This document shows, piece after piece, positions 27,845-54,824 of a stretch of 64,000 nucleotides of DNA. Below the pieces are notes generated by a model, which was given only the letters and a program-made list of their open reading frames with translations, searched no databases and had not been told where the DNA came from. Source of the stretch: Isoptericola sp. AK164. GTDB lineage: Bacteria > Actinomycetota > Actinomycetes > Actinomycetales > Cellulomonadaceae. Every line of letters begins with the position of its first letter. Position 1 is the first letter of the stretch. Location: assembly GCF_029643425.1 (NCBI RefSeq), contig NZ_CP119106.1:2418001-2482000 (forward strand), in the 5' to 3' direction. Both the position numbers and the translations under genes were made by a program.

Positions 27845-29134
27845 TCAGCGAATCTCCCAGTGGTCGACGTCGTCCCCCGCGTCGACGTGCGCGACGCCGG
27901 GTGGCACGTGTACCAGCAGCGTAGCCATCGCGAGGTGGGCCAGGAGGTGGGATCCCGGCCCGCCGACCATCTCGACACGGCCGTCGGCGTCGAGGCGGCC
28001 CCGGCGGACCTGGTGCAGATGCTCGGGTGAGTCGACCGCCTCGGCGAGCGGCGCCCGGCCGGGGGGCCGGTGCGCGGGCACCGCGCCGGTGGCCTCGGCG
28101 AGGACAGGGCGCAGGAACAGCTCGAAGGAGACCAGGGCGCTGACCGGGTTGCCGGGGAACGCGACCAGCGGCACGTCGCGCGGCGCGGTCGGATCACCCA
28201 ACGCGATCGTGCCGAGGCCCTGCGGCCCGCCGGGCTGGACGGCGACGTGCCCGAACCAGGCGTCCGTGAGGGTCTGGCGCACCACCTCGTACGCACCGGC
28301 GGAGACGCCGCCGCTGGTGACGACGAGCGCGACGTCGTCCGGCGCCTCGGCCAGGACGGTGCGCAGGGCGGCCGGGTCGTCCGGGACCACGCGGTGCGTG
28401 ACACGGCACCCCACCTCGGCCAGGGCGGCGGTCAGAGCGGCGCCGTTGGCGTCGTAGAGCTGTGCCGGGCCGAGCGGCTCACCGGCCGCGACGAGCTCGG
28501 AGCCGGTGGAGATCAGCAGCACGTGGGGCGGCTCGGCGACCTCGACCTCGGAGACACCCGCGGCGACGAGGACGCCGAGCTGTGCCGGACCGAGCCGGGT
28601 GCCCGCGAGGACGACGACGTCACCGGCGGCGACGTCGGATCCCGCGCGGCGGACGAAGGTGCCCAGCGCCACCGGTGCGGTGAACCGGACCGTCGCAGCG
28701 GTTCCGGGCTCCGGGAAGGCTGGCGGGTCCACCTCTTCGATCTTGATGACGGCGTCGGCGCCGTCGGGGATCGGGGCGCCGGTCATCACGGGGGCCGCGG
28801 TGCCGGGCGCGAGCGGCGGCGGCTGGGTGCCCGCCGGGACCGGCGCCCCGACCGGCAGCTCGACCGGGTCCGACGGCGCCGCTCCGGTCAGGTCGGCTGC
28901 GCGGACGGCGTACCCGTCCATCTGCGAGTTGTCGAAGCCGGGCAGGTCGACGACGGCGGCGACGTCGGCCGCTGCGACACGGGCACCGGCCGCGGAACCG
29001 CGACCGGCCGCGGCAAGCTCCTCGGCCAGATCGCACGCCTCGGCGCGCCGCGCAACGGCGAGCGCCGGCCCGATCAGCGCCCGGACGGCCTCGCGGTGGT
29101 CGTCGACGGGCCGACGTCTCGACTCTGCGTGCAC
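27845..29134 (-). CDS. moeA: Molybdopterin molybdenumtransferase MoeA (copy 1)
   Basis: The 429-residue enzyme inserts molybdate into adenylated molybdopterin. Domain markers are FDNSQMDGYAVRAADL near 68, MTGAPIPDGADAVIKIEEV near 120, LISTGSELVAAGEPL near 210, LVVTSGGVSAGAYEVV near 275, and FPGNPVSALVSFELFL near 330. The GTG start has no ribosome site; TAGGCT lies exactly 7 nt upstream, indicating a leaderless mRNA. It was originally coupled to moaC through an ATGA overlap, and its last 20 codons are duplicated on the far side of the PIN module. It is the functional-length copy and lacks the insertion seen in copy 2. Confidence 0.95.
   Translation of the reverse strand: MHAESRRRPVDDHREAVRALIGPALAVARRAEACDLAEELAAAGRGSAAGARVAAADVAAVVDLPGFDNSQMDGYAVRAADLTGAAPSDPVELPVGAPVPAGTQPPPLAPGTAAPVMTGAPIPDGADAVIKIEEVDPPAFPEPGTAATVRFTAPVALGTFVRRAGSDVAAGDVVVLAGTRLGPAQLGVLVAAGVSEVEVAEPPHVLLISTGSELVAAGEPLGPAQLYDANGAALTAALAEVGCRVTHRVVPDDPAALRTVLAEAPDDVALVVTSGGVSAGAYEVVRQTLTDAWFGHVAVQPGGPQGLGTIALGDPTAPRDVPLVAFPGNPVSALVSFELFLRPVLAEATGAVPAHRPPGRAPLAEAVDSPEHLHQVRRGRLDADGRVEMVGGPGSHLLAHLAMATLLVHVPPGVAHVDAGDDVDHWEIR
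27850..27910 (-). repeat. Right copy of 61-bp direct repeat (moeA1 3' end)
   Basis: This is the in-gene counterpart of 26664-26724, about 90% identical. The two copies lie in the same orientation and enclose the PIN toxin-antitoxin module, like attL/attR of an element integrated in a gene end, or the footprints of homologous recombination. Confidence 0.8.
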
Positions 29135-50160: not shown

Positions 50161-51474
50161 ATGACCAGCGGACCGCGCACCATCGCCGAGCACACCGCGG
50201 CGGCGCTCGCGCGCGTGCGGCCGGTGGCCGCCGCGTCCGTGCGGGTCGACGACCCCGCCGTGGTGGGCCTGGTCCTCGCCGCGGACGTCGTCGCCGCGGC
50301 GCCCGTACCGGCCTTCGACCATGCGGCGATGGACGGGTACGCGGTGCGGTCCGCCGACCTGCCCGACGACGGCTCGTCGGTGACGCTGGAGGTCCGGGGC
50401 GACCGGCGACCCGGTGTCCCCTCCCCCGCATCCGCCGCAGATGCTGTGGGCAGCGGCGGAGCAGCCGACGGCGGAGCGGTCCGGATCATGACCGGGGCGC
50501 CGTTACCGGCGGGGTGCGACGCCGTCGTCCCGGTCGAGCGGACCTCCACGAGCCGGTTCGTGGCCGGTGAGCCGACGACGGAGCGCACCGTGACCCTGTC
50601 CCGGCAGGCCCGCGACCACGTCCGTCGCGCGGGCACGGACCTGCGCCGTGGCGACCCGATCGCCCGCGCCGGGGACGTCGTCGGCCCGGGTCTGGTCGCC
50701 ACCGCGGCCGCCGCCGGGCTCGTCGAGCTGCCGGTGCGCCGTCGTCCCCGGGTCGCCGTGCTGTCCACGGGCTCCGAGCTCGCCCCGCTCGGGACCACCG
50801 AGGCCGGCACGATCGCCGACTCCAACTCCCTCATGCTCGCCGCGCTCGTGCGCGCCGCCGGCGCCGACGTCGTGCGCATCGGCGCGGTCCCGGACGACGC
50901 GGACGCCCTGCGCGCCGCCCTGGACCACGTTGTGGGCGTGAAATCTGCAGGTCCGGACCGCCACGATCCTGCAGATTTCATGCCCACAACGGGAGGGGTG
51001 GACCTGGTCGTCACCTCCGGCGGGGTGTCCGCCGGGGCGAGCGACGTCGTGCGCGAGCTGCTCGCCTCCGGATCGGCGGCCGACGTCGACGTCACCACCG
51101 TCGCCATGCGTCCCGGCAAGCCGCAGGCCCTGGCCTCCTGGCGCGGGGCTCCCTGGGTCGCCGTCCCCGGCAACCCCGTCAGCGCCTTCGTCTCGACCGC
51201 GCTGTACGCCCTGCCCGCGGTGCGACGCCTCGCCGGCCGTCCGGACCGACCCGCCACGGCCGTCCGCGCCGCCACCGGATGGTCCAGCCCGCCCGACAAG
51301 GAGCAGGTGGTCCCCGTGGTCACCCGGCCCGACGGCGTCACGCCGGCCGGTCGCGGCGGCCACCAGCTCTCCGCCCTCGCCCACGCCGACGCGCTCGTCG
51401 TCGTGCCCGCCGAGGTCGCCCACGTCGCCCCCGGCGACCGACTCCCCCACGTCCCGCTCCCGGAGGCTCGATGA
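50161..51474 (+). CDS. moeA: Molybdopterin molybdenumtransferase MoeA (copy 2) with palindrome-encoded insertion
   Basis: The 437-residue MoeA has DHAAMDGYAVRSADLP near 55, IMTGAPLPAGCDAVVPVE near 109, VLSTGSELAPLG near 200, LVVTSGGVSAGASDVV near 280 and VPGNPVSAFVSTALY near 337. Between DALRAALDH and VDLVVTSGG, about 21 residues (VVGVKSAGPDRHDPADFMP and flanking) are absent from MoeA copy 1 in this window and correspond exactly to an inverted-repeat DNA element. The frame is kept. The insert is at the edge of the MogA-like fold, before a core strand, where a loop could be tolerated. First gene of the second cofactor operon, coupled to mobA by ATGA. Confidence 0.93.
   Translation: MTSGPRTIAEHTAAALARVRPVAAASVRVDDPAVVGLVLAADVVAAAPVPAFDHAAMDGYAVRSADLPDDGSSVTLEVRGDRRPGVPSPASAADAVGSGGAADGGAVRIMTGAPLPAGCDAVVPVERTSTSRFVAGEPTTERTVTLSRQARDHVRRAGTDLRRGDPIARAGDVVGPGLVATAAAAGLVELPVRRRPRVAVLSTGSELAPLGTTEAGTIADSNSLMLAALVRAAGADVVRIGAVPDDADALRAALDHVVGVKSAGPDRHDPADFMPTTGGVDLVVTSGGVSAGASDVVRELLASGSAADVDVTTVAMRPGKPQALASWRGAPWVAVPGNPVSAFVSTALYALPAVRRLAGRPDRPATAVRAATGWSSPPDKEQVVPVVTRPDGVTPAGRGGHQLSALAHADALVVVPAEVAHVAPGDRLPHVPLPEAR
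50928..50991. repeat. Palindromic element inside moeA2 (copy A)
   Basis: The arms 50928-50951 and 50968-50991 are 24 nt each and complementary except for one position; the loop is 16 nt. The arms share their sequence (core GTGGGCGTGAAATCTGCAGG) with the intergenic copy at 53751-53808. In moeA2 it is read in frame without stops. Confidence 0.88.
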
Positions 51475-53444: not shown

Positions 53445-53687
53445 GTGCTGGAGCTGCGCTACTTCGCGGCGGCCCGGGCGGCGTTGGGCCGTGCCGGGGA
53501 GACGACGACGGTGGACGACGGCGCGACGGTCGCCGACGTCGTCGGCCGGCTGAGCGCGGGGGCGCCCGAGGCGGCGCCGGTGCTGTCCCGCTGCTCGGTG
53601 CTGCTGGACGGCCGGAGGGCCGCGCCGGACGACGTCGTGCCCGACGGCGCCACGCTCGACGTGCTGCCGCCGTTCGCCGGCGGCTGA
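53445..53687 (+). CDS. moaD: Molybdopterin synthase sulfur carrier subunit
   Basis: The 80-residue beta-grasp protein begins LELRYFAAARAALGRA and ends with PPFAGG; the terminal Gly-Gly is thiocarboxylated to carry sulfur to MoaE. The GTG start is 1 nt after the moaA stop. Its MoaE partner is in the other cofactor operon, and no MoeB/MoeZ activating enzyme is in the window. Confidence 0.93.
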   Translation: MLELRYFAAARAALGRAGETTTVDDGATVADVVGRLSAGAPEAAPVLSRCSVLLDGRRAAPDDVVPDGATLDVLPPFAGG

Positions 53688-53750
53688 CTCCTGCGGCGCG
53701 CTGTCGCTCGCCTCACCACGCGAGCGAGCACCCCGAGCTCCGACCCCCGC

Positions 53751-53808
53751 TGTGGGCGTGAAATCTGCAGGTCTCAGGTGCCTGAGACCTGCAGATTTCA
53801 CGCCCACA
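53751..53808. repeat. Palindromic element between moaD and etfA (copy B)
   Basis: A perfect 28-bp inverted repeat (53751-53778 with 53781-53808) with a 2-nt loop lies between two convergent genes. The outer 22 bp of each arm match copy A inside moeA2. It could serve as a bidirectional terminator, but its second home in a coding region shows it is a dispersed element. The remaining 100 bp of this gap show nothing else. Confidence 0.88.
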
Positions 53809-53846
53809 ACGCCAGCACGACGTCGGGGCGGTGACGGAAGCGGCCG

Positions 53847-54824
53847 TCAGGCCTGCTGCTTGTGGGCGCGGATGACCTCGGCCGCCTGGCCGAGCACGTC
53901 GGACAGGTCGCCGACCACGGCGAAGTCGCAGATCTCGAAGATCGGCGCCTCGGGATCGTTGTTCACCGCGACGATGACCTGCGAGGCCTGCATGCCGCCG
54001 CGGTGGTGCGGAGCGCCGGAGACACCCGCGCCGACGTACAGGCGCGGGGCGATCGTCACGCCCGTCTGCCCGATGTAGCGGTCGAACCAGCCCTCGAACA
54101 CGGCGTCGCGCGTCGCGCCGACGGCCCCGCCGACGGCGTCGGCGAACGCCTCGACCGGCCCGAAGTCGCCCTCGGTGCCACGCCCGCCGGCCACCACGAC
54201 CGCGGCCTCCTCGAGCGTCGGGCGGTCGGAGTCGCGGGCCTTCTCGGTCCGGGCGGTGACGGCCGGCAGCACGGCGTCGACCGCGACGGCGAAGCCCTCG
54301 ACCTCGGTGGCCACCGCGGCCTCGGCCGGCTGCGGGACGACGGCGTTGGCCCGGACGGTCAGCGCGGCCACGTCGGTGGTGACCCGGCTGACGGTGTCCC
54401 AGGAGCCGGCGAAGACCCGCTTGGTGCCCACGACGTGCCCGGCGTCGTCCTCGGCCACGCCGGCGGCGTCGATGATGACACCGGCGCCCAGCGCGTGCCC
54501 GGCCAGGGCCACGGCCTCCTTGGCACCGAAGGTCGAGGGCGCCAGCACGACGTCGGCGTCGGTGAGCCGCACGGCGGCGGTCAGCACGGCGGCGACGACG
54601 GCGGACAGGTGCCGGGCGTCCCCGCGCAGGTCGGCGGGAAGCTCGGCCTGGTGGACGGTCTCGACGCCGTAGGCGCCGAGCTGGGCGAGCGCCTCGACGC
54701 TCGGTGCCTCCAGCGTGACGGCCTCGACGCGACCGAGCGTGCGGCCGATCGTCAGCAGCTCCAGGACGCTGGGACGGACCTCGCCCGCGGGGTCGAGGAG
54801 GACAAGGACGGTGCGGTTCGTCAT
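53847..54824 (-). CDS. etfA: Electron transfer flavoprotein alpha subunit
   Basis: The 325-residue protein has the FAD-binding C-terminus PRLYVGAGVSGAPHHRGGMQ (about 255-274) and NNDPEAPIFEICDFAVVGDL (about 282-301), with TLEEAAVVVAGGRG and the N-terminal EtfA half AYGVETVHQAELPAD. It carries electrons from acyl-CoA or other flavin dehydrogenases to the quinone pool. The start is 14 bp after etfB. Confidence 0.95.
   Translation of the reverse strand: MTNRTVLVLLDPAGEVRPSVLELLTIGRTLGRVEAVTLEAPSVEALAQLGAYGVETVHQAELPADLRGDARHLSAVVAAVLTAAVRLTDADVVLAPSTFGAKEAVALAGHALGAGVIIDAAGVAEDDAGHVVGTKRVFAGSWDTVSRVTTDVAALTVRANAVVPQPAEAAVATEVEGFAVAVDAVLPAVTARTEKARDSDRPTLEEAAVVVAGGRGTEGDFGPVEAFADAVGGAVGATRDAVFEGWFDRYIGQTGVTIAPRLYVGAGVSGAPHHRGGMQASQVIVAVNNDPEAPIFEICDFAVVGDLSDVLGQAAEVIRAHKQQA

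Follow-up and report, generated by a model that had tools for sequence, protein, structure and literature searches.

Dispersed palindromes in Isoptericola, one of them read in frame in moeA2, and the DUF559-domain gene that they bracket

Results

Two copies of one palindrome in the molybdopterin gene region

The window analysed here is a stretch of 64,000 nucleotides from the 3.58-Mb genome of Isoptericola sp. AK164 (G000; other G-numbers are comparison genomes, and L-numbers are loci). Its gene names are our own reading of the translations. The gene moeA2 (50161–51474, + strand) encodes a molybdopterin molybdotransferase with MoeA_N, MoCF_biosynth and MoeA_C domains and hosts copy 1 of a 64-bp palindrome (50928–50991, strandless). 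This copy lies in frame in loop 2 of the protein, at about residues 257–277, and contains the core TGTGGGC...GCCCACA (50931–50988). Its arms of 24 bp are 96% complementary with 16 nt between them, and in the frame of moeA2 it is read as VVGVKSAGPDRHDPADFMPTT. Copy 2, of the same length and also strandless, occupies 53748–53811 in the gap between two convergent genes, moaD (+ strand, ending at 53687) and an etfA-like gene (− strand, starting at 53847). An earlier note on this DNA had described a 64-bp inverted repeat in frame in moeA2 and the same arms as a non-coding palindrome 2.8 kb downstream; repeat and arm searches, together with the translation, bear out both descriptions.

With up to three mismatches, the arm matches the window four times, two matches per palindrome, against 0.00 expected from 100 shuffles. 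The second MoeA gene of the window, moeA1 (27857–28996, − strand), carries no copy, as the earlier note had stated, since this window-wide search matches only copies 1 and 2. Both copies are predicted to fold stably as RNA, with −48.8 kcal/mol for copy 1 (z −11.0 versus its own shuffles) and −56.3 kcal/mol for copy 2 (z −11.8).

A palindrome family across the genome

The genome-wide arm search proposed by the earlier note uncovers further copies. With up to two mismatches, the arm matches G000 54 times forward and 55 times in reverse, whereas the reversed arm pattern, used as a control, has no match genome-wide. A strict whole-palindrome pattern matches 52 times. Within 51 fetched stretches of the genome we count 59 paired copies, and at least one more lies outside them (C1:799525), giving a total of at least 60. 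Unpaired arms in the fetched stretches number only four and are weak, with five mismatches each.

The copies in G000 have the outer arm CGYTGTGGGCRTGAAATCTGCA in common. The inner 18–20 bp vary between copies, yet tend toward self-pairing: among 46 copies, inner pairing is 0.70 within a copy versus 0.46 for halves taken from different copies. Across the 46 aligned 64-mers, two-sided pair changes number 146 versus 60.7 in shuffles, and in the arms, symmetric changes number 47 versus 15.4 expected, alongside 61 that affect one side only. A new copy may start out symmetric, or its symmetry may be restored or maintained by selection; template-switch correction or selection for pairing could alternatively produce the symmetric changes. 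The core measures 57–58 bp, and 63–64 bp when the outer pairs are included. Boundaries at 58, 60, 62 and 64 bp are all possible, because the loops of moeA2 and nnr are too variable for filled and empty sites to be aligned. Two of the three reading frames through the arm are open.

According to our own simple gene caller, the 59 copies fall into 34 convergent, 20 tandem and 2 divergent gaps, with 3 in coding sequence, so that 56 of them are intergenic, many near gene ends. In the fetched stretches, copies occupy 34 of the 78 convergent gaps, 20 of the 211 tandem gaps and 2 of the 70 divergent ones (Fisher p 5e-10, convergent versus tandem), all three shares being raised because the stretches were chosen around copies. 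The left flank is C-rich (0.53–0.63) and the right flank G-rich (0.50–0.58) across four context classes, compared with C 0.40 in the left half and G 0.40 in the right half of 30 convergent control gaps that lack a copy. T does not exceed 0.14 at any of the 16 flank positions counted, and no T-run of an intrinsic terminator follows the stem in the listed G000 flanks.

We found little sign of a target-site duplication. Direct repeats of at least 3 bp occur in at most 3 of the 59 copies at any boundary tested (lengths 3, 4, 5, 6, 8 and 9 at six boundaries), and this maximum, compared with 0.7 expected, is one of 36 cells. A 2-bp CG duplication would be indistinguishable from the palindrome itself. 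The element ends start with TGTGGGC, as those of Tn7 do; a tie to Tn7 was rejected, as a 5-bp duplication is absent from all copies at the boundaries examined. We also rejected a target hairpin completed by the flanks, where complementarity past the third outer base pair is about at the level of composition. No match to an Rfam family reaches the gathering score, and the lower-scoring hits (six microRNA hairpins that fall on the palindromes and one sRNA elsewhere) are ascribed to chance.

At L066:4000–4563 of G000, a DUF3054 gene has a palindrome on each side, the two being 0.5 kb from each other. This could be chance, or the gene could have been carried along.

In-frame copies in MoeA2 and Nnr

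The three coding copies of G000 share one reading phase. The copy in moeA2 reads VVGVKSAG..PADFMPTT, that in the bifunctional nnr gene AVGVRSAG..PADSTPTA, and that at the C-terminus of a glycosyltransferase VVGVKSAV..PADFMPTT.

A close MoeA2 match is present in 16 of the 18 genomes of the genus, of which 15 were compared after one cut by a contig end was dropped. Taking an inverted-repeat score of at least 13 as a palindrome, which leaves loop 2 of G003 and G009 (11 and 11.5) uncounted, 8 of these 15 carry one in loop 1, loop 2 or both. Loop 1, which precedes VRIMTG, is palindrome-free in the window (50389–50478, + strand) and is the palindrome site in five other species (G001, G007, G009, G011 and G017). 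Loop 2 is the site in G000, G005, G016 and G017. The MoeA2 loops of G006 and G012 resemble decayed copies by eye. Neither loop contains such a palindrome in the four family-free genomes G002, G003, G004 and G008, where G004 is counted as family-free with one arm match, no more than its control. G014 also has palindrome-free MoeA2 loops although its genome has the family. Thus neither a uniform set of orthologues with non-palindromic loops nor a genome devoid of further copies was found, and the claim of the earlier note that a palindrome has entered moeA2 stands on both counts.

The arms in MoeA2 vary between species, while the ends YTGTGRGC are common to all. G005, G016 and G017 share their loop 2 arms, so this insertion may be ancestral to all three; the other insertions look separate. 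The alternative is one old insertion whose arm sequence changed later. Among the listed matches, the nearest named MoeA2 proteins are those of Paraoerskovia, Cellulosimicrobium and Promicromonospora (50–54% identity).

In the linker of Nnr, compared by eye in 15 of 16 matching genomes, clear palindromes are present in G000 and G013 at the same linker and decayed ones in G009 and G011, with none in the other 11.

We notice that loop 1 of MoeA2 reads CGCTGTGGGCGTGATCTCACAGCG in G005 (L111) and GATGCTGTGGGTGCACAACATCC in G006 (L106), each resembling a palindrome with a deleted middle, which suggests in-frame decay. In the window, positions 50440–50451 of the same loop read GATGCTGTGGGC. This resembles the start of the family arm and is perhaps half of an old copy.

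A DUF559-domain gene between two palindromes

One G000 gene that encodes a DUF559 domain is flanked by a palindrome on either side. The domain (PF04480) was found in 13 of 14 palindrome-bearing genomes of the genus versus none of the four palindrome-free ones. Among 20 DUF559 places counted in the genus, 13 lie between matching palindromes, which are of the TGTGRGC type at 11 of them, and 7 do not. G007 and G012 each have two paralogues with different palindromes, the second copies being bracketed by another family, TGTGGGTGCACGACACGCCG.

The bracketed gene of about 300 codons occurs in 11 genomes of the genus and is broken in G000. There its coding sequence runs over two frames and contains an internal TGA, so that the gene is probably inactive in this genome. 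Nine measured units span 1.06–1.17 kb, and one palindrome lies within 13 bp of the stop codon. At L243, L250 and L251 the stop codon falls inside the palindrome (YTG TGG GCR TGA), which gives the protein the tail LWA.

From 12 bracketed proteins we built a profile, A2, and took a match at E < 1e-90 as a close orthologue. Such an orthologue is found in 11 genomes, all palindrome-bearing, and is absent from seven others, four without the family palindromes and three with them (G009, G010 and G015). The assemblies of G010 and G015 are in hundreds of contigs; that of G009 is not. The co-occurrence has p 0.011, a value inflated, like all those at genus level, by shared ancestry. More distant DUF559-type relatives occur in all orthologue-lacking genomes but G008, including three of the four palindrome-free ones. 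Across 12 units the distances between proteins covary with those between arms (Mantel r 0.66, p 1e-4).

Domains of the bracketed protein

At the C-terminus, DUF559 and MTES_1575 (PF18741) are matched in 12 of 12 members with E up to 0.1, the MTES_1575 match of the first member being below its cut-off. Residues E198, D231, E242, D244 and H248 are invariant in A2; the four acidic ones are the putative catalytic residues of a PD-(D/E)XK fold. By sequence, the C-terminal domain is a DUF559/Vsr-like PD-(D/E)XK nuclease, and it is predicted to cut DNA. The only solved relative that a sequence search returns is 3hrl, an endonuclease-like protein, with a weak match (E 0.06).

At the N-terminus, the AbiEi model of PADLOC is matched by 11 of the 12 members (best E 1.5e-10), and AbiEi_4 of Pfam by only one, weakly. 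PADLOC also gives restriction-enzyme matches. AbiEi binds inverted repeats.

Bracketing beyond the genus

The A2 profile matches 126 of the 149 genomes searched in the order, in 55 of 62 genera. We sampled the 26 best-scoring homologue loci outside the genus. Palindromes that share at least 12 consecutive bases, a cut-off set after this result was known, bracket the gene at 15 of them (16 at a cut-off of nine), whereas none of 77 control loci around moeA passes either cut-off (Fisher p 1.9e-11). These controls are mostly actinobacterial; 80 were fetched and 3 were too short. At a stricter repeat score of 16, an inverted repeat stands on both sides at 10 of 26 loci versus 0 of 77. The remaining 11 best-scoring loci have no sequence-sharing pair of palindromes. 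Even in the palindrome-rich stretches of G000, where 17 of 147 other genes (600–1500 bp) have some inverted repeat on both sides, only one of the 147 passes the bracketing test.

The bracketing sequences differ between outside-genus loci, and two of them were followed as dispersed families in two other genera, with about 5–13 copies per genome. The arm from G104 has 13 forward and 13 reverse matches there and none in nine genomes of its family. A second arm has 11 and 12 matches in G021, 5 and 4 in G038, and none in eight others; the counts of all three genomes include the bracketing copies. The 24 dispersed places in G104 and G021 comprise 9 convergent, 14 tandem and 1 divergent. None of these 24 copies lies inside a gene; the overlap of one copy with the end of a gene is 11 bp. 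The C/G skew of the flanks is weaker in G104, and none is seen in G021.

Three dispersed copies in G021 (L385, L386 and L387) have a nearly identical asymmetric interior. A palindrome that was already lopsided thus seems to have been copied, which speaks against perfect symmetry at every birth.

Matches of the profile are also found on plasmids. That of Arthrobacter sp. ERGS1:01 (WP_054009319.1, annotated as a hypothetical protein) is bracketed, and of two plasmid matches of Arthrobacter sp. StoSoilB13 one is weakly bracketed and the other unbracketed. A phage origin was rejected, as a tblastn search of IMG/VR returned no relative.

Discussion

A candidate mobilising protein for the palindromes

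Bracketing, co-occurrence and covariation tie one protein to one palindrome. The explanation that we consider probable is a system resembling REP/RAYT but built on an unrelated protein, with non-autonomous palindromes, a full unit of palindrome, gene and palindrome, and occasional insertion in frame. The palindrome-bracketed protein may thus spread the palindromes.

Under this explanation, the full form would be the unit of about 1.1 kb. The AbiEi-like N-terminal region would recognise the palindrome arm of its own genome, and the nuclease domain would cut the palindrome, which at that stage would probably be a hairpin, either extruded or single-stranded. The piece would then be re-copied from one arm, which would restore its symmetry. 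Cutting of a hairpin and copying from one arm would account for the symmetric changes as well as for the lack of a target duplication. Insertion would take place without target duplication, in G000 at sites that are C-rich on the left and G-rich on the right, mostly downstream of stop codons. In a tolerant loop, as in MoeA2 or Nnr, it would add about 20 residues, and the gene would not be stopped, because the arm can be read through in two of its three frames.

A wider proposal is that a new and widespread class of mobile palindromes exists in actinobacteria, with DUF559/Vsr-like proteins as its mobilising enzymes. Each lineage would have its own pair of nuclease and palindrome, which would move through cutting of hairpins and re-copying from one arm, would leave no target duplication, and would now and then add peptides to proteins. 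We put this forward tentatively, at slightly under even chances.

Comparison with known elements

The architecture, a gene bracketed by palindromes, is REP/RAYT-like. Such systems, the REPtrons (PMC2817692, PMC8266576), likewise have numerous short palindromes in each genome, close to the ends of genes, a cognate gene between two palindromes, co-evolution of protein and palindrome, and possibly more than one system per genome; a RAYT gene is described as having a REP on each side in every case and as co-evolving with these REPs (PMC2817692). In contrast to the Y1 HuH transposase of REPtrons, the protein here combines AbiEi-like and DUF559/Vsr-like PD-(D/E)XK regions. The elements here are of about 46–75 bp and symmetric, with a conserved outer arm, a variable self-complementary centre and no unpaired GTAG head. 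The looser head GT(A/G)G is also not present in unpaired form, as the GTGG of the TGTGGGC arms is paired on both sides and TGTGAGC families have GTGA at this place. A RAYT/Y1 transposase as the driver was rejected: PF01797 matches none of the 18 genomes of the genus, and the same search is positive in 5 of 14 control genomes. With the defining transposase not found and the head motif absent, we regard the system as one that works like a REPtron and do not class it as one.

The earlier note had likened the element to Rickettsia palindromic elements. The likeness holds insofar as both enter unrelated housekeeping genes in frame and are translated (PMC10969869), here in three genes of G000 and in the same phase. 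Membership does not follow: of Rickettsia elements a large share of in-frame coding insertions would be expected, and their length is given as about 150 bp (PMC10969869), whereas only 3 of 59 copies here are coding, the length is 58–64 bp and a candidate enzyme is bracketed by the palindromes. The palindromes also share with prokaryotic MITEs, as outlined in the same paper (PMC10969869), small size, inverted repeats, many copies and probable non-autonomy, and differ from them in that no clear target duplication of at least 3 bp is seen and that the bracketed gene is no known transposase. For its C-terminal domain, the bracketed protein is like the DUF559/MTES_1575 Vsr-like nucleases (PMC12907096, PMC3710099); the main texts of these two papers, in which the string 'palindrom' occurs 0 times, draw no link between DUF559 and dispersed palindromes. 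Searches of the open-access literature in PMC yielded no description of such a system and no work linking DUF559 to palindromes.

Alternative explanations

The palindromes might instead be host sites, acting as bidirectional terminators or stabilisers of mRNA 3' ends, with the AbiEi/DUF559 protein binding to them in a regulatory or maintenance role and nothing mobile at present. The crowding of copies in convergent gaps, the very stable predicted hairpins and the AbiEi-like N-terminus are consistent with this. However, some copies lie in frame inside coding genes, where a terminator would do harm, and the listed hairpins are not followed by a T-run. Moreover, the arms vary between species and even between two systems of one genome, and a terminator needs no nuclease domain with invariant acidic residues. 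We therefore consider host sites unlikely. Still fewer chances are given to a MITE of an ordinary DDE transposon, in which the arms would be terminal inverted repeats, a classical transposase would reside elsewhere and the DUF559 gene would be passenger cargo. Conserved ends, a variable interior and the genome-wide spread would suit it, yet direct repeats of at least 3 bp show no excess worth naming, unpaired arms in the fetched stretches are limited to the four weak ones, and the bracketed gene is one protein family across genera with which the arms covary.

Two further readings seem highly improbable to us. In one, the elements would spread by host routes as in Rickettsia, with no dedicated protein, and the association with DUF559 would arise because palindromes collect at gene ends. 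In-frame insertion into unrelated genes and the two open frames agree with it, but bracketing is specific to the homologue loci, in view of the moeA controls and the other G000 genes, and the palindrome-free genomes have no close orthologue of the gene. In the other, a DUF559-based defence system would have the palindromes as its targets or self-markers and not as its mobile products. The AbiEi and restriction-enzyme matches of PADLOC and the Vsr-like nuclease family point that way; against it, the unit has room for one gene only, the palindromes are scattered over gene ends and loops, and no relative was found in IMG/VR.

REP elements are not known to have any partner protein outside the class of Y1 transposases. 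On the explanation favoured here, a REP/RAYT-like system with an unrelated protein, a second protein family would be bracketed by its own palindromes, which would give a group of 'domains of unknown function' a testable role. Such a family across many actinobacterial genera would explain the origin of many palindromes in high-GC genomes, and would show new protein segments being built from palindromes in a group other than Rickettsia. Since each protein is paired with its own arm sequence, binding and cutting are directly testable.

Other palindromes near DUF559-type genes

At L353 (G001:C7, about 89873–90592), we observed a second, more distant DUF559-type gene between palindromes at 1122–1196 and 2265–2343 of the locus, which have 75 identical bp in common; their sequence, CGCCGAGATCGACGTACCCG..., is unrelated. 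Pairs that share sequence in a similar way are present at L346 (G015), L347 (G002), L355 (G014) and L360 (G005), so that even G002, without the TGTGRGC family, has another pair. DUF559 genes of another subfamily (L255, L257, L258, L259 and L342) lie near GC-rich hairpins, CGACGGC...GCCGTCG. These are perhaps ordinary terminators of the genus, because their two sides share little. G001 also has a second palindrome family, TGTGGGCGCACTTCCTGGCCCG, with a core of about 69 bp. Of its roughly 26 listed places, 12 are in one stretch of 133 kb (G001:C1:416191–549696), which also contains the DUF559 gene of G001.
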